Assembly (NCBI GenBank): GCA_921293015.1
Contig: OV121097.1
Span: forward strand, 29,361,429 to 29,425,428
Direction: 5' to 3'
From: Phorcus lineatus
Taxonomy: Eukaryota; Mollusca; Gastropoda; Trochida; Trochidae
DNA length: 64,000 nt
In this document: piece after piece, positions 6,828 to 62,100 of the stretch
How the letters are laid out: each line of letters opens with the position of its first letter
How positions within the stretch are numbered: the stretch's first letter is position 1
The notes under the pieces: model-generated
Told to the model about the DNA's origin: nothing
The model's database searches: none
What the model saw: only the letters and a program-made list of their open reading frames with translations
Translations under genes and position numbers: made by a program

Positions 6828-7052
6828 ATAATATACTCTATAAATGTCTCCCGTTAGTAGTTGCTGTAGCCATGTTTACCCACCACCTTATATTTTCCTT
6901 CTCCATTATATAACATGCTAAAGATGTTCATATTACAAATATGTTTTAAAAAAAGTAAAATTCTATTGAATTATCGTCATCGGTATTCCGTTATTTACAA
7001 GTATATAACCTTTTTACTTTCAAATGAAACAAAAGAATTCTTCTGAACTTAC

Positions 7053-7076
7053 CTCGCGTTCCACTTGAGCCAAATT
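7053..7076 (-). CDS. 24-nt microexon (N-L-A-Q-V-E-R-E)
   Basis: On the minus strand the acceptor tttcctgtgaacag precedes AATTTGGCTCAAGTGGAACG-CGAG, followed by the donor GTAAGTTCAG. The length is a multiple of three. Phase 0 gives an open, charged octapeptide. It occupies the same place in a B unit as the 12-nt exons in the tandem array. That it belongs to the gene starting at 24985 is inferred from strand, order and phase. Confidence 0.5.
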
Positions 7077-8574: not shown

Positions 8575-8598
8575 CTTGCAAAACATTTCAAGTTGAAT
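8575..8598 (-). CDS. 24-nt microexon (I-Q-L-E-M-F-C-K)
   Basis: Minus-strand acceptor tttcctgcaaacag, exon ATTCAACTTGAAATGTTTTG-CAAG, donor GTAAGTTCAG. Its position within the B unit matches that of 7053-7076. Length and phase are kept although the 24-nt exon sequences differ almost completely. Confidence 0.5.
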
Positions 8599-10544
8599 CT
8601 GTTTGCAGGAAACATGCAAAGGAAATGGAGTACATAAAATACAAATAATTGTCACATACACATTTTTTATGAATACAATACATGTATACTCAACATTTTA
8701 CCTTGCTTCAGAGTACCGATTTTGCAAACAATAGTTAACTGTTTTTCACTAGAAACAAAATAATAACAAATAACAAGCTTTGAAGTTTTCAACGGGGTAA
8801 GAATTACATATACGACATAATTACATGATACACTAATTACTTCAAAAAAGGCAAACCAACACTGACATACTTCCATCACCTTTAATCAATATTACGGTTT
8901 ATGCAAACATGAGAGTATTTAAAAAAGCATGCGGAGACTGTAATATTGCAAAAACAGTTCAAATACAAGTTGGCATATATATATTACCCTTTTAGACTCC
9001 ATTTATAAACTTTTATCCTCCAGATCCATTAGTGCAGATATGTTTAAGATAGATTTGAATTAAGTTATCAGTTACTATCAAACTGGGTTCATGTCAGGAG
9101 GACAACATTCGCTTGATTTGTTTGTTTTGCTCTTATCCACATTATATAGACAAAAATAGAAGTCTAGTAGAAGACTATTAGTTTAAACTTTCATTTAAAC
9201 TCTTATGCATTTATTTTGGGGTGTTCAATACTAGCTTCATTTCAAATTTTGACCGCCTTTGGGTAATATTCATTTATATTTGCCTTCGTTTTGGCTACGA
9301 CGCAATTAAGGGGCTGGTATGTTACAGCCAAATTTGGGTTTTTGAATTATATCTTTTTTTAATACTGTTTCTTAGATGCGAAACTAAACTGACCTAACTT
9401 TTGGACACTAAGCTCTACTAAGGGGTCAAGGGAAACAACTCGTTTAGAGGTCATTAGATTTGATAGAGGTGATCTGAGAGCACATGGTCTGTGACAGCAT
9501 GTAGCTGATGTTTTATGATGTGACGTTTGAAGATATGAGGATGTGGAACAAACATATTAATGTCAATCTTTCATATGACATATGAAGAATAAACTACATA
9601 TAGAAGGTATTGTCATCTTGTTCATAAAGTGTTTGACCTGTGACATGATGAAAAGATTGATGAAAGATGCTTATGAAGATTTGGAAACTACAACAGGTAT
9701 GCAAACATGAGATTATAAAAAAAGCATGCAGAGACTGTAATATATATTGCACAAACAGGTTCACGTCAATATTACATTTACATCGTCAACATGTAGTACA
9801 AGTTTGCCATATAATGAAAGAGTATGTACACCGTTTCATGTGAAAATAAGGTTAAGTTTGATTATGCTCAACGATATTATAGTAGATAAAATCATGAAAA
9901 GAAATATTCAAAATGTTCTGATAAGCAAGATTTTAGACTTAAACAATCAATCACAGTTTTACAATAGGAAATCTGTCAATCATCCAGAAACAAGGAATTA
10001 TAACCTCTATAACAAAAAAGCAAAACACTGAAAATTAATAAGAAAAATTTCGGCCAAATAAGCTTATGAAATTCCATTTATAAACGTTGGTCCTCTATGT
10101 TGAACAGTATGAAGATCGTACGAAATTTCTCTTGGCCGGTTTAAAGTGATCTTTTGAATAAAAAAAGCCTCTTTTATTAGATTTTTGGATTAGTATAAAA
10201 AAAAACTTTGATAAATAACAAGATATTTGGATAGGATCAAATAAAAATTGTAACATCAAATTTAGACCCGGTCTAAGCCTGGCTTGAAATCCTGAGTTCT
10301 TCATAATTATTGTCATATTTTCCCAGAATCTTTGTAATGTTTTTTTTAAAGCAAAATCTTTGATATTGAAGAAACTGTTAAGAAAAGGATGGAACGAATT
10401 CTTGCACCATGATATAAAATGTTAAAGATTAACTTGCTTTAGCGTACCCTTTTTAGTTAACTTTTTTCATAAGAAATAAAATGATAACAAATAACAGTTT
10501 TGAAATTTTCAAGGGACTAAGAATTACATTTACGACATATTTAT

Positions 10545-14917: not shown

Positions 14918-14935
14918 CTCTAACGTTTTTTTAAA
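14918..14935 (-). CDS. 18-nt microexon (F-K-K-T-L-E)
   Basis: Minus-strand acceptor tttctttcacattcag, exon TTTAAAAAAACGTTAGAG, donor GTAAGTTAAG. It marks the junction between B-type units and the ~400-bp tandem array. Phase 0 is open. Confidence 0.45.
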
Positions 14936-14939
14936 CTGA

Positions 14940-17900
14940 ATGTGAAAGAAATGGAGTACATAAATTACAAATGATTGTCACATTACACATTGTATATGAA
15001 TACGACACATGTATACTCAAAAGTTTCACGTCAATATCACATTTACATGTACATGGTTATGTGTACATGCTATGGCTTTAAACAAACACTGAATTGCATG
15101 TATAAAATGCTTTAGATTTTATAATACATATATGGCTTAAAATACGTTTTACTATTTTGAATTCTTGAGCCTCAGTTTTCCATTATTCAAAAGAAAATAA
15201 CCTTTTTTCCTTCAAATGAAACTATAGAATTCTTCTTAACTTACCTGATCTGGAAGCTGAATGTGAAAGAAATTGAGTACATAAATTACAAACGATTGTC
15301 ACATTACACATTGTTTATGAATACGATACATGTATACTCAAAAGTTTATAACAGGAATTTGTCAATCGCCAAAAAAACCAAGGAATTATCCAAAAAGGCA
15401 AGAGATGTATTATTCCAAAAACTGTTTCACCTCAATATCACATTTACATGGTTATGTGTACATGCTATGGCTTTAAACAAACACTGAATTGCATATATAA
15501 AATGCTTTATATTTTATAATACATATATGGTTTAAAATACGTTTTACTATTTTGAATTCTTGAGCCTCAGTTTTCCATTATTCAAAAGAAAATAACCTTT
15601 TTTCCTTCAAATGAAACTATAGAATTATTCTTAACTTACCTGGTTTAGAAGCTGAATGCGAAAGAAATTGAGTACATAAATTACAAACGATTGTCACATT
15701 ACACATTGTTTATGAATACGATACATGTATACTCAAAAGTTTATAACAGGTATTTGTCAATCGCCAAAAAAAACAAGGGATTATCAAAAAATGCAAGCGA
15801 CATTATCATTCCGTACACTGTTTCACGTCAATATCACATTTACATGGTTATGTGTACATGCTATGCCTTTAAACAAACACTGAATTGCATATATAAAATG
15901 CTTTATATTTTATAATACATATATGGTTTAAAATACGTTTTACTATTTTGAATTCTTGAGCCTCAGTTTTCCCTTATTCAAAAGAAAATAGCCTTTTTTC
16001 CTTCAAATGAAACTATAGAATTCTTCTTAACCTACCTGTTCTCGAAGCTGAATGTGAAAGAAATTGAGTACATAAATTACAAACAATTGTCACATTACAC
16101 ATTGTTTATGAATACGATACATGTATACTCAAAAGTGTATACTCAAAAGTTTATAACAGGAATTTGTCAATCGCCAAAAAAACCAAGGAATTATCCAAAA
16201 AGGCAAGAGAATGTATTATTCCAAAAACTGTTTCACCTCAATATCACATTTACATGGTTATGTGTACATGCTATGGCTTTAAACAAACACTGAATTGCAT
16301 ATATAAAATGCTTTATATTTTATAATACATATATGGTTTAAAATACGTTTTACTATTTTGAATTCTTGAGCCTCAGTTTTCCATTATTCAAAAGAAAATA
16401 GTCTTTTTTCTTTCAAATGAAACTATAGAATCCTTCTTAACCTACCTGTTCTCCAAGCTGAATGTGAAAGAAATTGAGTACATAAATTACAAACGATTGT
16501 CACATTACACATTGTTTATGAATACGATACATGTATACTCAAAAGTTTATAACAGGAATTTGTCAATCGCCAAAAAAACCAAGGAATTATCCAAAAAGGC
16601 AAGAGATGTATTATTCCAAAAACTGTTTCACGTCAATATCACATTTACATGTACATGGTTATGTGTACATGCTATGGCTTTAAACAAACACTGAATTGCA
16701 TATATAAAATGCTTTAGATTTTATAATACATATATAGTTTAAAATACGTTTTACTATTTTGAATTCTTGAGCCTCAGTTTTCCCTTATTTAAAAGGAAAA
16801 TGTCTTTTTTCCTTCAAATGAAACGATAGAATTCTTCTTAACTTACCTGGTTTAGAAGCTGAATGTGAAAGAAATTGAGTACATAAATTACAAACGATTG
16901 TCACATTACACATTGTTTATGAATACGATACATGTATACTCAAAAGTTTATAACAGGAATTTGTCAATCGCCAAAAAAAATAAGGGATTATCAATAAATG
17001 CAAGAGACATTATTATTCCGTAAACTGTTTCACGTCAATATCACATTTGCATGGTTATGTGTACATGCTATGGCTTTAAACAAACACTGAATTGCATATA
17101 TAAAATGCTTTAGATTTTATATTACATTTATAGCTTAAAATACGTTTTACTATTTTGAATTCTTGAGCCTCAGTTTTCCCTTATTCAAAAGAAAATAACC
17201 TTTTTTCCTTCAAATGAAACTATAGAATTCTTCTTAACTTACCTGTTCTCGAAGCTGAATGTGAAAGAAATTGAGTACATAAATTACAAACGATTGTCAC
17301 ATTACACATTGTTTATGAATACGATACATGTATACTCAAAAGTTTATAACAGGAATTTGTCAATCGCCAAAAAAACCAAGGAATTATCCAAAAAGGCAAG
17401 AGAATGTATTATTCCAAAAACTGTTTCACGTCAATATCACATTTACATGTACATGGTTATGTGTACATGCTATGGCTTTAAACAAACACTGAATTGCATG
17501 TATAAAATGCTTTAGATTTTATAATACATATATGGTTTAAAATACGTTTTACTATTTTGAATTCTTGAGCCTCAGTTTTCCCTTAATCAAAAGAAAATAG
17601 TCTTTTTTCCTTCAAATGAAACTATAGAATTCTTCTTAACTTACCTGATCTGGAAGCTGAATGTGAAAGAAATTGAGTACATAAATTACAAACGATTGTC
17701 ACATTACACATTGTTTATGAATACGATACATGTATACTCAAAAGTTTATAACAAGAATTTGTCAATCGCCAAAAAAACCAAGGAATTATCCAAAAAGGCA
17801 AGAGATGTATTATTCCAAAAACTGTTTCACGTCAATATCACATGTACATGGTTATGTGCACATGCTATGGCTTTAAACAAACACTGAATTGCATGTATAA

Positions 17901-19120
17901 AATGCTTTAGATTTTATAATACATATATGGTTTAAAATACGTTTTACTATTTTGAATTCTTGAGCCTCAGTTTTCCATTATTCAAAAGAAAATAGTCTTT
18001 TTTCTTTCAAATGAAACTATAGAATCCTTCTTAACTTACCTTATCTTGAAGCTGAATGTGAAAGAAATTGAGTACATAAATTACAAACGATTGTCACATT
18101 ACACATTGTTTATGAATACGATACATGTATACTCAAAAGTTTATAACAGGAATTTGTCAATCACCAAAAAAACCAAGGAATTATCCAAAAAGGCAAGAGA
18201 ATGTATTATTCCGTAAACTGTTTCACGTCAATATCACATTTACATGGTTATGTGTACATGCTATGGCTTTAAACAAACACTGAATTGCATATATAAAATG
18301 CTTTAGATTTTATAATACATATATGGTTAAAAATACGTTTTACTATTTTGAATTCTTGAGCCTCAGTTTTCTCTTATTCAAAAGAAAATAACCTTTTTTC
18401 CTTCAAATGAAACTATAGAATTCTTCTTAACTTACCTTATCTCGAAGCTGAATGTGAAAGAAATTGAGTACATAAATTACAAACGATTGGCACATTACAC
18501 ATTGTTTATGAATACGATACATGTATACTCAAAAGTTTATAACAGGAATTTGTCAATCGCAAAAAAAACAAGGAATTATCCAAAAATGCAAGAGAATGTA
18601 TTATTCCAAAAACTGTTTCACCTCAATATCACATTTACATGGTTATGTGTACATGCTATGGCTTTAAACAAACACTGAATTGCATATATAAAATGCTCTA
18701 GATTTTATAATACATATATGGTTTAAAATACGTTTTACTATTTTGAATTCTTGAGCGTCAGTTTTCCATTATTCAAAAGAAAATAGTCTTTTTTCCTTCA
18801 AATGAAACTATAGAATTCTTCTTAACTTACCTGGTTTAGAAGCTGAATGCGAAAGAAATTGAGTACATAAATTACAAACGATTGTCACATTACACATTGT
18901 TTATGAATACGATACATGTATACTCAAAAGTTTATAACAGGTATTTGTCAATCGCCAAAAAAAACAAGGAATTATCCAAAAAGGCAAGAGAATGTATTAT
19001 TCCGTAAACTGTTTCACGTCAATATCACAAGTACATGCGTATGTGCTATGGTTTTAAACAAACACTGAATTGCATATATAAATTGCTTTAGATTTTATAA
19101 TACATATATGTTTTAAAATA
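14940..19120 (-). repeat. Tandem array of ten ~400-bp microexon units
   Basis: Unit lengths from the constant word gaaagaaattgagtacat are about 401, 390, 410, 402, 395, 402, 395, 396 and 396. Most of each unit is nearly identical between copies. The exception is a block of about eight bases between the constant donor (cttacct/cctacct on the plus strand) and acceptor (gctgaatg), which changes from unit to unit. That block is the variable part of the 12-nt minus-strand exon. Confidence 0.9.
15245..18842 (-). CDS. Ten 12-nt microexons encoding L-x-(D/E/N)-(Q/K)
   Basis: In order of transcription: 18831-18842 LLNQ, 18436-18447 LRDK, 18040-18051 LQDK, 17645-17656 LPDQ, 17243-17254 LREQ, 16847-16858 LLNQ, 16446-16457 LGEQ, 16036-16047 LREQ, 15640-15651 LLNQ, 15245-15256 LPDQ. 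Each sits between the acceptor tttctttcacattcag (tttctttcgcattcag in two) and the donor GTAAGTTAAG (GTAGGTTAAG in two). Only phase 0 lacks stops in every copy: phase 1 meets TAA in LQDK and LRDK, and phase 2 meets TAA in LLNQ. Codon 2 carries all four bases at its second position (CCA, CTA, CGA, CAA). Codon 3 is always D, E or N and codon 4 always Q or K. Strung together they would give leucine every fourth residue, so a helical stalk whose length depends on how many exons are used is plausible. Membership of the gene at 24985 is inferred. Confidence 0.6.
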
Positions 19121-19849
19121 CTTTTTACTACATTGAATTATCGTGACTCAGTAATTCATTTTTTTTAAACAACATAACGTTTTTTTAAATTATAAATAAA
19201 CAGAACAGCTCTTCTAAACTTACCATAGTATTTTCCATGTGTTCATCGAGCTGGAAACATCAAAAAGGAATGGACAATATAAAATACAAAGAGTTGTCAT
19301 ATTACACATTTTCAAAAAGTTAATTACCGTATACTACACTTTTTACCTTGCTTCAGCGTACGCTATTTTAAAACAATTGTTAACTTTTTTCATAAGAAAT
19401 AAAATAATAACAAATAACAAACTATTAAGAGATGGTTGCAACGAATTCTTACACCATTATATCAAATGCTAAAGATGTTTATATTACTTCCATGTTTTTA
19501 AAAGAAAAAAACCTTTTTTCCTTCAAATGGAACAAAAAATTTCTTCTGAACTTTCTTTTTTAATCAGAGTCGGTTCGCGGGAAACATCCAAGGAAATGGA
19601 GTACATAAAATAAAAATGATTATCACATTACGCATTGTGTATGAATACGTTACATTCTCAACATTTAACCTTGCTTCAGAGTACCGATTTTGTACACAAT
19701 AGATAACCTTTTTTATACGAAATGTAATCAATAACACATAACAAGTTTTGAAATTTTCAAGAGTCTAAGAATAACATTTATTTTATATTCATGTGATACA
19801 CTACTTTCTTAGCAAAATGTTATCTATCACTAACACTCTTCCGTCACCT
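19121..19849 (-). repeat. Degenerate B units beside exon 2, including a dead microexon
   Basis: B homology runs to about 19893, right at the 3' end of the RHIM-like exon. A second microexon position at 19545-19575 is broken: the donor reads GAAAGTTCAG instead of GTAAGTTCAG, and the acceptor AG is lost (cgcgaaccg). Confidence 0.55.
19224..19250 (-). CDS. 27-nt microexon (L-D-E-H-M-E-N-T-M)
   Basis: Minus-strand acceptor ttttgatgtttccag, exon CTCGATGAACACATGG-AAAATACTATG, donor GTAAGTTTAG. It is the first intact microexon after the RHIM-like exon. Phase 0 is open, and the first codon is Leu as in the 12-nt series. Confidence 0.5.
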
Positions 19850-22800
19850 TTAATCAAGATAACCCTGTATGCAAACATGAAAGCAATAAGAAAAACTTTT
19901 AGTGGTTGCCTCATGTGTACAGGAACAAGAACTCTTTTCACTTGAACATTGAGCTTGTGTTGAATTGGTCAAAGCTTGAGGTTTATCTTCTGATTTAAGT
20001 TGATGATATTTAGTTTGTGTTGTATCTTGGGTTGTACTGGTCAGAGCCTGAAATTTATCTGGCGAAAATGGTTCATTGCCATTTTGGTTAATGAAAGAAT
20101 AGTTGTTGGTTATGTTAGTATTCTGGGTAGTTGAACCAACTATGATCTGCGTGTTGCCTTCGCCAACTTGGTTGTTGCCAGACGTGTTGATTTTCTTGGC
20201 AGATAATCCTTTCACATGTTGACCGATTTTTTGTGCTCCGTCCCTGAAATTGATAAAATAACTTTTTTGAAAAGCAGTCATTTCATTGTAAACCATCAAT
20301 TAAGAATCAAACATACAACTAATTGATTATTGCAATATAAATCAAAGACACATCCAAAATTTAGAACTCAACCTACAATTCTAAGGGCAACTAGAATTGA
20401 GTCTGCCATTCGCTATTCGCCATTCTTATTTAAGTTTTCATAAAGGAATTTAATTTGGTTTTCGTCTTTCATATTTTTGTGATATCTGAATAACGAAGAT
20501 ATACCTAAAACGGTATAGAAAACAGGTCTCAAGGACATAGATGATATAATATCGACATTTTATTCTACTTGCATTCCCCAGTCTAAATCATTTTCGAAAA
20601 GGTCAAATCTATCACAATCTTTACAAGTTTGACAACATATAAGTAAAGTTACCGACATAGACATCGGATTTAAGTTCAAGTAACCTTTTCGTACCTGACT
20701 CATAAACGCCGGATGTCGAAAACTATTTTAAACTCTAGCTAATCATTACATCAATCCACATAAAAATTACATGAATTTTGATGATGCAGATAATGCATGT
20801 TTATAGAGGTGATGATGCGAGTGTGTTTTGTAAAAAAAAGCCTGATGACATCACTGAGCGTGCAAATGAACAGCGTACTGATATTCACCGTAAACTGACA
20901 AAAAATCAATCCTCCTTTATTTAGTTCTTAAGGTAACAGAGCTGGTTTTTTGGCATAAGTTTTATTTTTTCAAATTTCGTTCCTATGAAAATCAATATTC
21001 GAACTCGCATATTTTCGCGATCGCCTTAGCGTTTACAAGTGCTCAGGGGTCGAGCGTATCTCACTTAGAAAGAGCTAGAGTTGCTTCCCTTTTCCAAATG
21101 ACAATTTGAGTAAACACAGCGTTACGGATTGATTAACTAAAGTTAGACTTTAAATAGATGTTTGATGTGTGCTTTGCATATGAGTCTGAACCAGATTTAA
21201 TCAATCAACTATACTGTAAACAAATGGATTTACAGTAGCTAAAAAGGTTTCTATTTATAGATCAATCACCTTCGACACTAAATGTGTCACCAAGAAAGCT
21301 TAACCCCAAACACATACGTAAACAACAAGGACAAATACTGTCTATAATTCATTTTAATAGTATAAAGGAATACATTTCAAGTAAATAATTATAGTATAGA
21401 GCGGATCCATCCATTTCCATCGAAACATACTTCCAAAAATATTTTGAAATGCTTCATATCGCTTTGTTTGTACACCAAAACGTAAGGCGGTGATTGTGAA
21501 TTTCTTACGCCATTTTAAGCAGTGTAAACAAACGCGTGAGATAACAACAAGCTGTTACAAAGTATACATTCGCAGGTAGCAATATGTAGTGGGAATGATA
21601 TATAAAACGAACCATGAAATCAGTTGATTTTTTTAATTTAACATGTAAACCAATCAAATTAAAAAAGACAATAACTTAATCTATTCATAAAAATGGAATA
21701 TTTTAAGCCTCGATGTTGCTTTTTATCAGAGCGAGGTGAATTTTAGATTTTTATGAAGTGTTTCACTCATATCAAATTAATATTTGAATCAGTACAGAGT
21801 AAGTTGGTATTCCCGTCTCCCATTTCTGCAATTAACACTTTCTGCTTTAGACAACTGTCCCTCCGCCATCTGCAGTCTGTCACTCGGCCATTACGCTCCT
21901 CCAATGTGGTAAGCGCGTTCGGCTTCGGTTCGGGAGGTCCGTGGTTCGAATCCCGCCAGGGGCTCGGCAACTGTGTCTGCAGTAGAGAACTGTTCTACAT
22001 GCAGTGAGGTTTGGGTGCAATGCTACACTGAAATTCAGCGCAGTACCACCCATGGTTCGCTAGTTCCAGCCGATGCTCGCAGGTTTCACCGCAATGCATA
22101 GCCATAATGGTGAAATACTCTTGAAAGAGGCGTTAAAACACCAACTCACCTCACCTAAACTATACATAAATCGTTTCGATTAAAAGTTTAACCACATCCC
22201 TACTCCATACTAACGGTATCCCATGAGATGCGCATGCGCATTGAGGTCAGTAGCGAGTGTGCTTTTGAGGAAAGTTGACGCTTTGGTTAATTAGGTGACA
22301 AAAGTTGCTTTAAGTGTTCATATTTATTGTGATGAATCTGTGGAATACGGATTAATGTGTATTTGATTCTCTGGATTGGATATATTCAGTGAACTGATTG
22401 TGCCAAGGTTTGTGTTGACTGTATTCTTGGAATTTGTTGTGACTCACTGACCCGTGATCGGGTCAGAGTTCAAGATGGCGGCGGAACAAAAACAACAACA
22501 TGACTCTGGTGACATGGATTCGCACGTGTTGCACGACCGCCCAGGTTTGTTTGAAAATGTTCGGGACATTGTAGCCCAGGCAGCACCTCGAGTGCTATCG
22601 AGAGATGAACACTCTCAAGGTAGATCTAATGGCACATCGAGTCATAGACTAACATATAGTCCCTGAAAAAAATGTTTCACTAAAAATGTATTTTTCAATT
22701 TTTGGTATGAAATAACATAAAAAAGGAGTCCTGTACAATGGCTGAGGCAACTAGACTTGCCAACATTTTCTAGACTTAAGATGGCTCCTTTAATATTTTG

Positions 22801-24985
22801 CCATAGGGTCTGGATGACAGACTAATCGAGTCAGTTTACCTTCGTGCCGATCAGCCAAAACAATGGCGTTTCTAAAAATAGAACCAGCACATCGGCTGCT
22901 AGCACGAGTGCAGTGGGTGACAACAAGCTCACGGCCACAGGTCAGTCGACCGAAAACCAGTCATATACTCTAAATGACATAGGGGAGTTCATGAGAGCTA
23001 TTTTGTACCATCAGAAAAATGACACGGGTAACACAGTAATGCCTCAGGCTGCGTCTTAATTATAAATAAGGTTCTATTTAGTCAGATTTATTTTAAGGGC
23101 ATCCTTATCATTTGCTAGTAAAAGTTGTTAATATTCACGTCGAAACGTCGAATATCTTGAATGAAGAAGTTGCATAATGGTATCCATAAAATTACCTTCA
23201 TCGCTTCTAAAATACTGACCATAGAAAAGCACAAAATGGTTATCCACTTATTTTTGCCCGATTAAGATTCATTAAGTTAACACAAAAATGGTACGTATCT
23301 GTTTCATGTTGCTAAAATGAATGCACTTTAATCTAAATTTATTTGTATCATACTTTATACAATTATGTAAGTCATTTCGACTGATAGTTATGTGTAATGG
23401 TAGCAACCTTATCTTAACGTTATTAAAAACAAGAGACAAAAGACAAAATCAATCACTAAAGCTGCAGCCCTTATTGGCCCAGGCATAGACAGATTTTATA
23501 AGTTCTGGTCATCATGTCATCTTCTTTTTTATGTCTTAATACCTTATTCATTTATGTAACCATCTCACGTACGAAAATGCAACAAAATAAAAAAATTAAA
23601 ATAAAAAAAAATCAATCACCAAGATGTATATGTGTATGATAGATTCATGAGAATGTTCTTGCTTCACAATGAGTACATGTTGCCACATATTGTTCACACT
23701 TTCACTGAGTTTCTTGCATCGTCACTACAGTGATACCGGGTTATACTTTGACAAATGAATCTGCATGTACGTAATGAAAGGTACACCTGTCCTTCAACTA
23801 CTTAAATGTAATGTTTAGCTAGTAAGCCTTCAAAAAACATAGATATGTATTCGGTATAGATTCGGTAAAAAAGTATTTAAAGTGAGTTAACTTAATAATG
23901 ATTATAAACATAAGAAAAACAATCAGTTGGTATTGTGTAGACGTGTTCTTCTTAGAAAGGTTTGAAATGGGTACTTTAAGTTATCGTTAATAACTACCGA
24001 TATTTTAGTGATTAAGTCTACGATTACAACACATTGAGTATTCTTTACAAAGGCGATGTACGTTGTTATTTTTCCCTTTATAAGTCTATGTACATGTAAA
24101 GGCAATACTATGTACCAATTTTTAATACAATGAAGTAAGTTTATGGTTTAAACCGTATTTAGAAGTGTATTGTTTAAATTCTATTGATCTAGTTAGGTCA
24201 AGACGCATATGCATAGAGAAGTATGGAAAGCATTGTTTCGTCAAATATAACTGGTGTGGGGTATAATTACCAGTTATGCAGTGCATGCGCACGCAGGGTA
24301 TCAACTTAAACGTCATCAGCTGAACATATCATCGTATCAGGCAAAGATTGAAATATGTCTATCTGCAATGAGCTATCAGTGCTCCATTCAGTATTAGTCC
24401 ACCCAATCTATGGTTAATATAGCTTTAACTAGACAAAATTGCAAAAGAAATGATAACAATTGTTTCATGTTGTGCGAAATGTCTACTCTGACATACAAAA
24501 ATTCTAAATCAATCTGAATGGGGCAACATTCCCAATTCTGTTTTCATGACAACGTCTCTTTACCTATCGACTTGCCGCCATATTGGATATTTTACTCTGT
24601 GTGTATCTAATTATAGATCCAACGAATGCTTAGGACAGCACTGTGATATTTTATTGACAACTAAACTTAAATAGTAATAAGTTGTTAATAAGAACAAATC
24701 ACTTGAAAGCCGAATAATACATACACTTTTAGTGTCAAAGTTCAGATTAAATAATATGAGGACACCCTGGGTGTTCAGTTATGACTAGCTAATGTCCCAG
24801 AAGTTCCGGCTTGTATACAACAATACTGAACAGTAATGATTCCATTGGTTAGAAATAGCAACGCAACACTTGAATAATATTCCAAATAAAGTTTCTGAAT
24901 AGATCGGTTTATCTTACCCGTCTGGCTCTCCGTTCATTTCGTTTTCTTTTCGGACCAAATGTGTTTCGTTTTGTCCGTCCGCCAT
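19850..24985 (-). CDS. RHIM-like motif protein, exons 1 and 2 of microexon gene
   Basis: Exon 1 is 24985-24918: CAAAATGG start context, 22 codons plus GG, donor GTAAGAT. Exon 2 begins at 20243 after the acceptor ttatcaatttcag, and its first G completes the split Gly codon, so the join is in phase. The peptide starts MADGQNETHLVRKENE and is acidic and polar. Around residues 45-59 it reads GNNQVGEGNTQIIVG, which matches the RHIM core pattern (Q-V-G, then N three residues on, then hydrophobics) known from RIPK1/RIPK3/ZBP1-type necrosome proteins. The first core position is N rather than I/V. Gln/Asn/Thr-rich sequence follows, with two Q-A-L-T repeats and a short Cys cluster. The exon either runs to TAA at 19850 (153 residues; AATAAA at 19777-19782) or ends at 19910 at a phase-0 GC donor (GAG|GCAACC) leading to the microexons. 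The ~4.7-kb intron carries a SINE and a retroelement-like fragment. It is probably an innate immune adaptor; that function is inferred from the motif and the kB site. Confidence 0.6.
20300..21894. other. Intron 1 of the minus-strand gene, nothing recognised
   Basis: AT-rich sequence with no splice-flanked open exon or repeat seen, apart from short homopolymers. Confidence 0.4.
21895..22158 (+). repeat. tRNA-derived SINE
   Basis: A tRNA-like head contains an A-box-like tggtaagcgcg (21907-21917) and a consensus B box ggttcgaatcc (21943-21953). A body follows with gaggtttgggtgc, ccatggttcgctagttccag and aaagaggcgttaaaacacc. The same body occurs inverted at 26660-26852 and as a fragment at 2826-2965. 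Confidence 0.75.
22475..23059 (+). CDS. Two open fragments, probably retroelement-derived
   Basis: The first fragment starts ATGGCGGCGG at 22475 and gives a ~63-residue acidic peptide (MAAEQKQQHDSGDMDSHV...) ending at 22666. The second is open from ~22844 to TAA at 23059, is Ser/Thr/Asn-rich and ends V-M-P-Q-A-A-S. The obvious splice sites (CAAG|GTAGAT at ~22619, acceptor before 22857) do not agree in phase. An A-rich tail lies near 23590-23620. It sits in the intron of the minus-strand gene. A gag-like ORF or retrocopy is possible; I do not recognise it. Confidence 0.25.
23060..24900. other. Intron 1 of the minus-strand gene, nothing recognised
   Basis: It holds an A-rich stretch at ~23585-23620 and otherwise unassigned AT-rich sequence. 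ATGGCGGCAAG on the minus strand near 24583 is followed by an in-frame TAG and was not taken as a start exon. Confidence 0.4.
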
Positions 24986-33182: not shown

Positions 33183-50375
<17,193 letters not shown>

Positions 50376-59100: not shown

Positions 59101-62100
59101 CCCGTGACTGAGACATGACGTCATCGAACAATTTTGATTGACATGTTGGCGCCGAGGCGATTGGCGAGAGGCCAACTCAACGTTAATGCCGTCAGTTTAC
59201 GGTAAAAACACGAATTGTTCATACTATGGAGAGAATTGTTTTTAGATTTTCACTTTTTCTATGATTACATTATATATCTATAAAATGAGCTACTGTCTCT
59301 TTAAGATGTCCACATAGCGTACCAGAAACTGTTTCTCCGCCGCTTCCAAAAAGTATATACTGGGACCCATCCATGGCTGTGTATGTAACCGTGCTCATGT
59401 AGGTTTCACGATCGTTTGGCATCTCAAGGTAGGTTCCAAGGGGACGACCAGTTGCCCCTGACAACACGATTAGTCGCCCAGCAACGCGGGTATGATTCTG
59501 GAATTCAAATGGTTGAAACAAATGAAGTGATATTGACAGAAAAAACGCAAGAAAAAAAAATTGAAATTCCGTGTTTAATGTTTAATAAGCTTCATTCCAT
59601 GTGTGGTTTAATTATGGAGGTGTTGCTGCCTTGCTTCACGCGAAGCGATAGAATATTGCTTGGAAGAGCGCTGCACTACGGGTACACAGCCAATGGAAGG
59701 CAAAGAATTTCCATGTTTACGATGTAATGGGGGCAATAAAGAATTATAATTATCATGTTATGAAATATTATGATATCATACTATTCTATACAGTCATTTA
59801 AAAGCTTCCCATTAGGTTTTTTCTTTTGACCATTGCCTTACGCAAGTGAGTGAGTGAGTAGGGATTTAATGTATTTTCTTACTCTTACTTATTCAACACA
59901 TGGATATTAACTTTACAAGGGAGGGTAGAGAGTTCAGAGAGATGGGATGGAGATAATGAGGGAACAGACGGACAGGACGACACAATGACAGGTAGAGAGC
60001 AGGTTTCAGATCGACTCAAATTTGGTCTGAATATTATCCGTCGACCCACCGGGGGCATTTCAGCTCAGTGTGGCTTAGCTCTCGGGTTCTGTGAAGACCG
60101 CAAACCAACACAACTCCAGTCGAGTGTGATGTGATTAACTTCAGTCAGTTTTCTTTTTGCTTCGTTTTGGTTAATAACAAATCAATTTTTTCGACATTGA
60201 TAAGTTTTACTTTCACTTCATTCTTAATAATTCAAAATCAATTTCACTTTGTCCACTAGTTCGATAACAATGAAGTTCTATGAATATATTTATGAATATT
60301 GATTATTAAAAGTATCTAAGTAGACACAGTAAGCAGTTTAGTTTGACTTATAAATAAATAACTACAAACAAGATACCATTTGACCTTTATGTGGCAAACA
60401 AATTAGTTAATTTTATTTATTACACCAAATTAGGGCATCATCAAGCAAGTCTGCGTCCATATTATAAATGATACTCGTTTTCGACTCGGGCTAATTAACT
60501 TTCCCGCTAACGATCCCGGGTCGAACAACGATGAGCCTCACTTCTATTATGGACGCAGTGTCGCTTAAAGTTGATTCCCGTTTCTTAGCATTGCATTAAA
60601 GTAATATTAGTGACTTACGATCACCTTAAAGTTTTGAAAGGGGGCTTAGTTTCACTTATGATCTTCAGATAACTTCGTATTATAATCGGTTTTGCGTCTT
60701 CTTTTTAATCTAGAGAGAATATGTGTGTCCTCGGAAAGCATTTTGTAGTTTGTAAGATAAAGAAGAGGCAGCCGACAGAGCTTGTAATTTCTATATTTCT
60801 CGAGTTGTAAAAATGCAGTCAATCATAATTAATAAAACGTTGTGAACAATTGTCATTTCTACCTTTGCATCTATGTTGGGATCCCCGCCATGGGGAACCA
60901 AGACATCCGGGACATTATCTCCGTCAACGTCAGGAAGGGGCGTGGCCTGGTATACGTTCCATGTTTGTTTAAAGGAGTCTGGGTATTCACTGCCGTCAGC
61001 ATACCATAGCGTTTTGCCTGTCAGGTGATTGATGAACGTACACATATTTCTATATAAGTTTAAAGAGGCAATAGGATTTTTTGGAAAGATTTGGGGTTTT
61101 TTCAAATCTACTCCAATAAACATTAGTTAATGCCCAAATGTATTATCTTTGGAGGGTCAAAACGTCTCAATACTTAACTCGATTATCCGTAGAGGAAGTT
61201 ATCAAGAAAGAATCATTTGAAGTAGAAAAATCGATTCATATACCTACTAAATATGGTAGCTTCGTTTTAAAATTGCATCTTATGGTTAAAACACATTGTC
61301 ATGTAATTGGGAACATTTATATTTTTTATATATATTAGTTTTTTGTTATTTATCATTAAAGTGTTTTAACACAAACGTTTATTAAACAGATCTTAAGGAT
61401 AAAGCAAAGAATCAAAACAATTTTGAAAACGTATTACACAATTACATTTGCTGGTTTGGATTAAGACTTATGAATAACATATATTATCGCATTGGAGAAC
61501 AGAATACCATTTTCATGACGAGGAATTTTCCACACATCTTACCTTGTCTCAAATCCACTGCTTGTACAGTGGATTGACGGCCTGTACCAATGCAGTCCTT
61601 GACCCCATCAGAATTAAGGTCAAGGTCACACATCAAAAACATAACCTCAGACCGCGTTGGTACTCTCCATAGCTCCTTCCCGTCATAACCCCTCAGGGCA
61701 AGCAAGAAGCCAATACATGGATAGGGTAAATCTGAAAGAAATCATTTTATGATGTTTTGTAGTAAAACAAAACTTGACTTAATGTAATAATAAAAAAACA
61801 ACACATTTGAGAGATGGTACCCAGAAATTGAACTTATAAACTATATGTTTTGGTGCAAAGCTCAGCTGAACAGAAACGAAACAGTTCAGCAAATTTTGGT
61901 TTCAGTTGACATTGTACAGGTGACCTACTTTATCTGTTATTGCTTGATAATACGATAGCTGAAGAGTCGATATTCAAACAGTTGTTGTGTAACCGTAGCA
62001 AAAAAGACTAGCGTCATATCTTAGTTTCTGTAAAATTAAATTGGTCCGTGTGAATGTGACCCTTATGTGCTGCCATACTTCACAGTCATGTAGATGACGT

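Follow-up and report, generated by a model that had tools for sequence, protein, structure and literature searches.

In Dscam and similar gene clusters, tandem exon duplicates serve exon choice, one exon per cluster being used to the exclusion of the others, and the exons code for far larger parts of domains than those considered below. In Schistosoma mansoni, tandemly repeated 81-base exons were reportedly described in a 1988 study, to judge from its title. Schistosome micro-exon genes (MEGs) are characterized, in the excerpted text of one source, by a large number of tiny exons (6-81 bp), the lengths of which are mostly divisible by three; long introns separate them, and the encoded protein is variable (PMC10526429). 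The bicycle genes of aphids have, again according to an excerpt, numerous small internal exons that share one phase (phase 2), and their proteins change fast (PMC9168663). The present work concerns a locus of small exons in a mollusc, contained in part in a stretch of 64,000 nucleotides (nt) referred to as the window (G000:C39:29361429-29425428, from a 958-Mb genome; coordinates without a label are window positions). On balance, we favor the view that it belongs to a molluscan gene family in which a conserved motif exon has acquired a tail of duplicated coding microexons in two neighboring copies, copy A in the window and its paralog, block B, 80 kb away, the tail varying between them.

The likeness to MEGs, raised in a sequence-only reading of this DNA, is borne out in gene form, as small multiple-of-three exons are common to both, although here they make up the 3′ part only, their use as exons is predicted and the motif exon (exon 2) is larger. 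The locus differs from MEGs in having a motif exon of 433 nt in block B, recent and near-identical introns, and splicing that is predicted. MEGs encode an N-terminal signal peptide, vary their transcripts by skipping exons and have a trematode host; here no signal peptide is evident in exon 1 and the host is a mollusc, for which reasons the locus is not filed as a MEG. Many small one-phase exons and fast change also recall the bicycle genes as excerpted, although the phase is 2 there and 0 here, and bicycle proteins are salivary secretions. Tandem exon duplicates are shared with Dscam-type clusters, but each exon comprises only 4-9 codons here. The arrangement had been called new, which is only partly right since tandemly repeated exons in S. 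mansoni have, by that title, been in print since 1988; in the partial texts on microexons, micro-exon genes and exon duplication that were available, neither a molluscan tandem microexon array nor this locus was recognized. The host assignment comes from haemocyanins: the mollusc haemocyanin beta-sandwich family has 16 matches on C12, grouped as two eight-member clusters, and one domain matches eight stretches in each of three long PDB haemocyanins (3j32, 6r83 and 8trz). Two eight-unit haemocyanin genes point to a gastropod.

The center of copy A is a tandem array at 15045-19139 on the minus strand (period 396, 10.3 copies, 93% matches). As the sequence-only reading had it for ten units of ~400 bp, each of the ten ~396-bp units carries on that strand an acceptor, a 12-nt block and a donor; CAG precedes the exon in 10/10 units, and the donor is GTAAGT in eight and GTAGGT in two. 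Splice-site and unit alignment places the minus-strand microexons, numbered 1 to 10, at 18831..18842 (1, LLNQ), 18436..18447 (2, LRDK), 18040..18051 (3, LQDK), 17645..17656 (4, LPDQ), 17243..17254 (5, LREQ), 16847..16858 (6, LLNQ), 16446..16457 (7, LGEQ), 16036..16047 (8, LREQ), 15640..15651 (9, LLNQ) and 15245..15256 (10, LPDQ). LLNQ thus occurs three times, LPDQ and LREQ twice each, and LRDK, LQDK and LGEQ once each, all ten conforming to the proposed pattern L-x-(D/E/N)-(Q/K). Five of the 12 exon columns vary, and all four bases (T, G, A, C) occur at the second position of codon 2, both as claimed.

Related units extend the family beyond the array. A 12-nt unit used as a DNA query gave at least 28 matches, all within C39:29273119-29380981. 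With 120 kb to the left of the window and 40 kb to its right added (224 kb in all), twenty live microexons were counted, 14 in the window and six outside it. Unit alignment identifies in copy A, all on the minus strand, a 27-nt microexon (19224..19250, LDEHMENTM; RVEQMENTM in its block B counterpart), an 18-nt microexon (14918..14935, FKKTLE) and two 24-nt microexons, 24a (8575..8598, IQLEMFCK) and 24b (7053..7076, NLAQVERE). The 21-nt paralog of 24b, FELKLEK, is a live family unit at C39:29346963-29346943 (minus), and a further live 24-nt unit, 24E, lies at C39:29273098-29273075 (minus). Dead relatives stand among the live ones: a 15-nt microexon, TLIKK (19556..19570, minus), has CCG as acceptor and GAAAGT as donor and is 15/15 identical in block B, where it is dead too. 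At 10429..10543 (minus) only the upstream intron piece of another unit is left, its exon apparently deleted, as matches stop near 10429 and resume with the downstream flank; a unit near C39:29348300 has no acceptor.

It is mainly the combination of length, phase and splice-site conservation that argues for coding. All 20 live microexons (12-27 nt) are multiples of three and fall into seven classes of 27, 12, 18, 24, 24, 21 and 24 nt. The chance of this would be (1/3)^7 for independent classes, or ~0.01 on a count restricted to changes between the five different lengths; as the classes share ancestry, it lies between the two. Phase 0 had been singled out as the only phase free of stops throughout, and this holds: in the window set of 15 exons, one dead unit included, stops occur in 5/15 exons in phase 1, 6/15 in phase 2 and 0/15 in phase 0, so that the 18-, 24- and 27-nt relatives follow the same length rule and phase as had been stated. 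Among the 14 distinct live exons, phase 0 is open in 14/14, while phases 1 and 2 are stopped in 3/14 and 7/14. When bases were shuffled within exons, the probability that one given phase is open throughout the seven classes was P = 0.0035, which has to be tripled if the phase is chosen freely. The eight splice columns need 1 step across the seven class representatives, against 1.01 for each of 141 background columns (p = 0.0014). The phase and splice-column tests were based on live units; the dead 15-nt units of both copies, the unit near C39:29348300 and the one lacking its exon were set aside.

Block B offers the most complete gene model. By paralogy with copy A, its exon 1 is placed at C39:29328545-29328478 (minus) and its 433-nt exon 2 at C39:29298934-29298502 (minus), where it ends at ATA/GTAAGG in phase 0; its microexons are one of 27 nt and three of 12 nt (LREQ, LREQ, ILNQ), together with the dead 15-nt unit. 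When exons 1 and 2, the 27-nt exon, the 12-nt trio and a candidate terminal exon are joined, an open frame of 189 amino acids runs from the ATG to a stop, so that block B may be read as a single gene. The candidate terminal exon begins GGC TGA, a start common to three blocks (A, B and E), and was proposed because homology among them sets in at about the acceptor and continues beyond an AATAAA that they share. Another possible acceptor lies further downstream (CCAATGCAG in A) and was not preferred, and no clear coding exon was found among the downstream open reading frames common to A and B. The microexon tail would be the C-terminus of the protein. In copy A, exon 1 (24918..24985, minus), recognized by its block B paralog, comprises an ATG, MADGQNETHLVRKENEMNGEPD and the donor GG/GTAAGA, and ends in phase 2. 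Between the two exons 1 the ratio of nonsynonymous to synonymous rates (Ka/Ks) is 0.2, estimated from two changes of each kind. Taken as the first coding exon, its peptide, MADGQNETHLVRKENEMNG in A and MADRQNETHLVRKENEMNG in B, is hydrophilic and has no signal-peptide-like stretch by eye.

Exon 2 of copy A (19853..20243, minus) was delimited by paralog alignment and carries the conserved motif INTSGNNQVGEGNTQIIVGSTTQNTNITNNY, which is common to A, B, gene C, copy D and a 703-amino-acid frame on C25. In gene C (C39:29334979-29334346, minus) the motif exon includes CPKCGH, and a 63-nt repeat occurs three times within the exon. Copy D, in the region of C39:29286851, is a relative of the motif exon broken by stops. 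The C25 paralog (G000:C25:21324424-21322316, minus) continues after the motif with long acidic tandem repeats (~54 nt); in the 40 kb around it no microexon unit was accepted, the best blastn match having an E of 0.009. In gene C and the C25 gene the motif is thus kept while the repetitive part that follows it varies, and in A and B the microexons would be that repeated part. Ka/Ks for exon 2 is 0.18 for A/C and 0.31 for B/C, at Ks values of 1.0-1.5 that are near saturation. These distant pairs speak for a coding exon, and the near pair A/B does not decide the matter.

In part of the set, the microexons differ from each other more than their introns do. In the ten-unit array, exon pairwise diversity is 0.211, whereas the 159 intron columns closest to the exon have 0.027, which agrees with the near-identity of flanking intron described earlier. 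Variable columns number 5/12 in the exon and 15/159 in the near intron (Fisher p = 0.006; p = 0.016 against all 405 intron columns), and a permutation over all columns gives p = 4e-4 for the exon diversity. With three units from block B added (13 units), an intron-based tree requires 14 steps in the 12 exon columns, compared with 63 in 200 (permutation p = 0.004), and column permutation by allele count gives p = 0.006. The minimum tree of the seven distinct 12-nt exons contains 10 nonsynonymous and 0 synonymous changes, which is only suggestive because 12-nt exons offer so few synonymous sites. Among the longer exons, 24b and the 21-nt exon are separated by 11/24 edits while their flanks differ by 0.14 and 0.05 per site (0/264 flank windows as different; P = 3e-5). 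Exon 24a compared with 24b or the 21-nt exon gives P = 0.007 and 0.014, values not independent of the 24b/21 pair, and the 27-nt exon of A compared with 24a gives P = 0.033. Exon excess over flank thus reaches P < 0.05 in 4/12 pairs, three of which share exons 24a, 24b and 21. It is borderline for the 27-nt exons of A and B (4/27 edits, 24/250 flank windows as different, P = 0.07) and for the pair M27A/U01 (P = 0.06), and the dead 15-nt unit, as a control pair between A and B, has 0/15 changes. Recent pairs thus show faster exon change, which is undetectable in old ones.

These data suggest a mechanism in which symmetric cassettes of exon plus intron would have been duplicated repeatedly, adding a 3′ part of phase-0 coding microexons and thereby length without breaking the frame. 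Recent copying, perhaps with gene conversion, would have kept the introns alike while the tiny exons diverged under protein-level selection or relaxed constraint, so that the encoded tail would come to differ in sequence and length between A and B. The microexons would be spliced together into a transcript, which all or only some of them may enter, and the driver of their change may be protein-level selection.

Several observations weigh against this reading. For exon 2, A and B give a Ka/Ks of 0.60, and in other frames of that stretch the values are 0.53 and 0.57. The exon 2 donor of block B is weak (score 2.2) and the GGC TGA terminal exon is a guess, picked by conservation. Before its stop, exon 2A has no good donor: by scoring against general splice-site frequencies, its best GT reaches 0.3 and its best phase-0 site, a GC, 2.1, compared with 6.2-8.7 for six microexon-type donors. 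The intact splice sites of ten near-identical units carry little weight because few mutations are expected there, and some ascertainment remains in the tests of phase and splice columns since only live units, picked with sites present, entered them. As for exon change, another non-overlapping 12-column window of the ten-unit alignment reaches a diversity of 0.194, and 6/12 exon pairs are not significant (five deep pairs, three with M24E and two with M18A, and the dead pair), with 2/12 borderline. The expectation that the exon would still exceed the intron once more units were aligned held across the 13 units as a whole; it did not hold against every window, one intron window having 12 steps against 14 in the exon and 10 alleles against 9. 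A coiled-coil or helical tail finds no support in the hydrophobic moment (for the B tail, p = 0.55 at 100 degrees) and was dropped as a reading; a signal in the A array is confined to 90 degrees (p = 4e-4), as would be the case for a four-residue repeat.

The state of exon 2A bears directly on how the locus is interpreted. Both B and C keep CPKCGH, which identifies A as the changed copy: it has lost this 3′ part and the donor, and its frame now runs into former intron, with a stop at 19852-19850. Direct splicing from exon 2A to the microexons was rejected for want of a good in-phase donor, and splicing straight from exon 1A because the passage from phase 2 to phase 0 breaks the frame. Given this loss, the largest array may have been rewired or may be no more than a relic: either another upstream exon is used in copy A, or exon 2A is now terminal, or the copy has decayed. 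In the last case, which is a lesser but serious possibility, the 396-bp array would have grown neutrally after the donor was lost, its exon variety partly inherited and shuffled by unequal exchange, while B might still use its microexons. The truncation itself, the dead and exon-less units and a 3.3-kb transposon present in A and absent from B all fit such decay, as does the presence in B of LREQ and of ILNQ, one base from LLNQ. Yet four of the six 12-nt peptide types (LRDK, LQDK, LPDQ and LGEQ, with LLNQ counted together with ILNQ) are found only in A, exon diversity exceeds that of the near intron, and 24b and the 21-nt exon, which lie 3′ of the break, have diverged much further than the introns around them. 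The transposon (13841-10543, minus, with inverted ends TATCATCCCAACT) is inserted in copy A, and block B has the empty site; sequences similar to its ends are also found near 6840 and 2340.

If the microexons are coding and in use, they could all be joined in each transcript, without exon choice, into an invariant repetitive tail, as ten similar units with strong sites and the plain in-exon repeats of the relatives (63 nt x3 in gene C, acidic ~54-nt repeats on C25) would have it; nothing speaks directly against this, and as a full account of the locus we consider it doubtful. The sequence-only reading had instead proposed exon choice; a variable tail formed by choosing among tandem four-codon exons, kept diverse by selection and joined to the conserved motif, for instance in immune or self recognition, seems to us rather improbable. 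That the whole is a non-coding repeat with chance splice-like motifs is very improbable. Loose acceptor-microexon-donor cassettes are indeed as common in shuffled sequence (25.6 on average, n=10) as in the 224 kb (32 on the minus strand, of which 16 belong to family units, and 19 on the plus strand), and the evidence rests on the homologous set and not on any one cassette; multiple-of-three lengths, a single open phase and conserved splice columns in that set speak against chance.

Should the microexons be spliced, a micro-exon gene design would occur outside the flatworms and aphids mentioned above, and recent exon-plus-intron duplicates, live and dead, would stand side by side, making the birth, spread and diversification of microexons testable at one locus. 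The question of what a protein gains from four-residue steps would also arise; if exon choice were true, it would amount to a combinatorial diversity system in such steps.

RHIM-type amyloid motifs have the core pattern [IV]Q[IVL]GxxN, which the exon 2 core NQ[IV]G[ED][GR]N recalls, although the latter begins with N in 4/4 aligned copies. No RHIM was matched in PDB or Pfam searches, and a profile of four motif sequences, small and weak, gave one PDB match (E 0.34) that is not a RHIM. Exon 2A has no match in the PDB, and neither the exon 2 copies nor the peptide of the joined microexons exceeded the cut-off in Pfam; the closest approach was DUF668 for the latter (21 bits, cut-off 24). For the joined exon 1-2 peptide, six candidate homologs by shared words include none with E <= 1. 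Neither viral contigs nor Rfam gave a match. Absence from these libraries says little, as their mollusc share is not visible.

Some other features of the region may be mentioned. A 128-bp tandem repeat at C39:29263801-29264878 contains several frames that are 65-98% alike. Frames at 59270-61126 (minus) weakly resemble the FAM234 beta-propeller, below the Pfam cut-off. Quiver/Ly-6-like exons are found at 49648-50375 (plus), with PF17064 at 27.7 bits against a cut-off of 27.3 on the joined pair, and these frames resemble, by reading, mutually matching minus-strand frames near C39:29434500 and 29446200.

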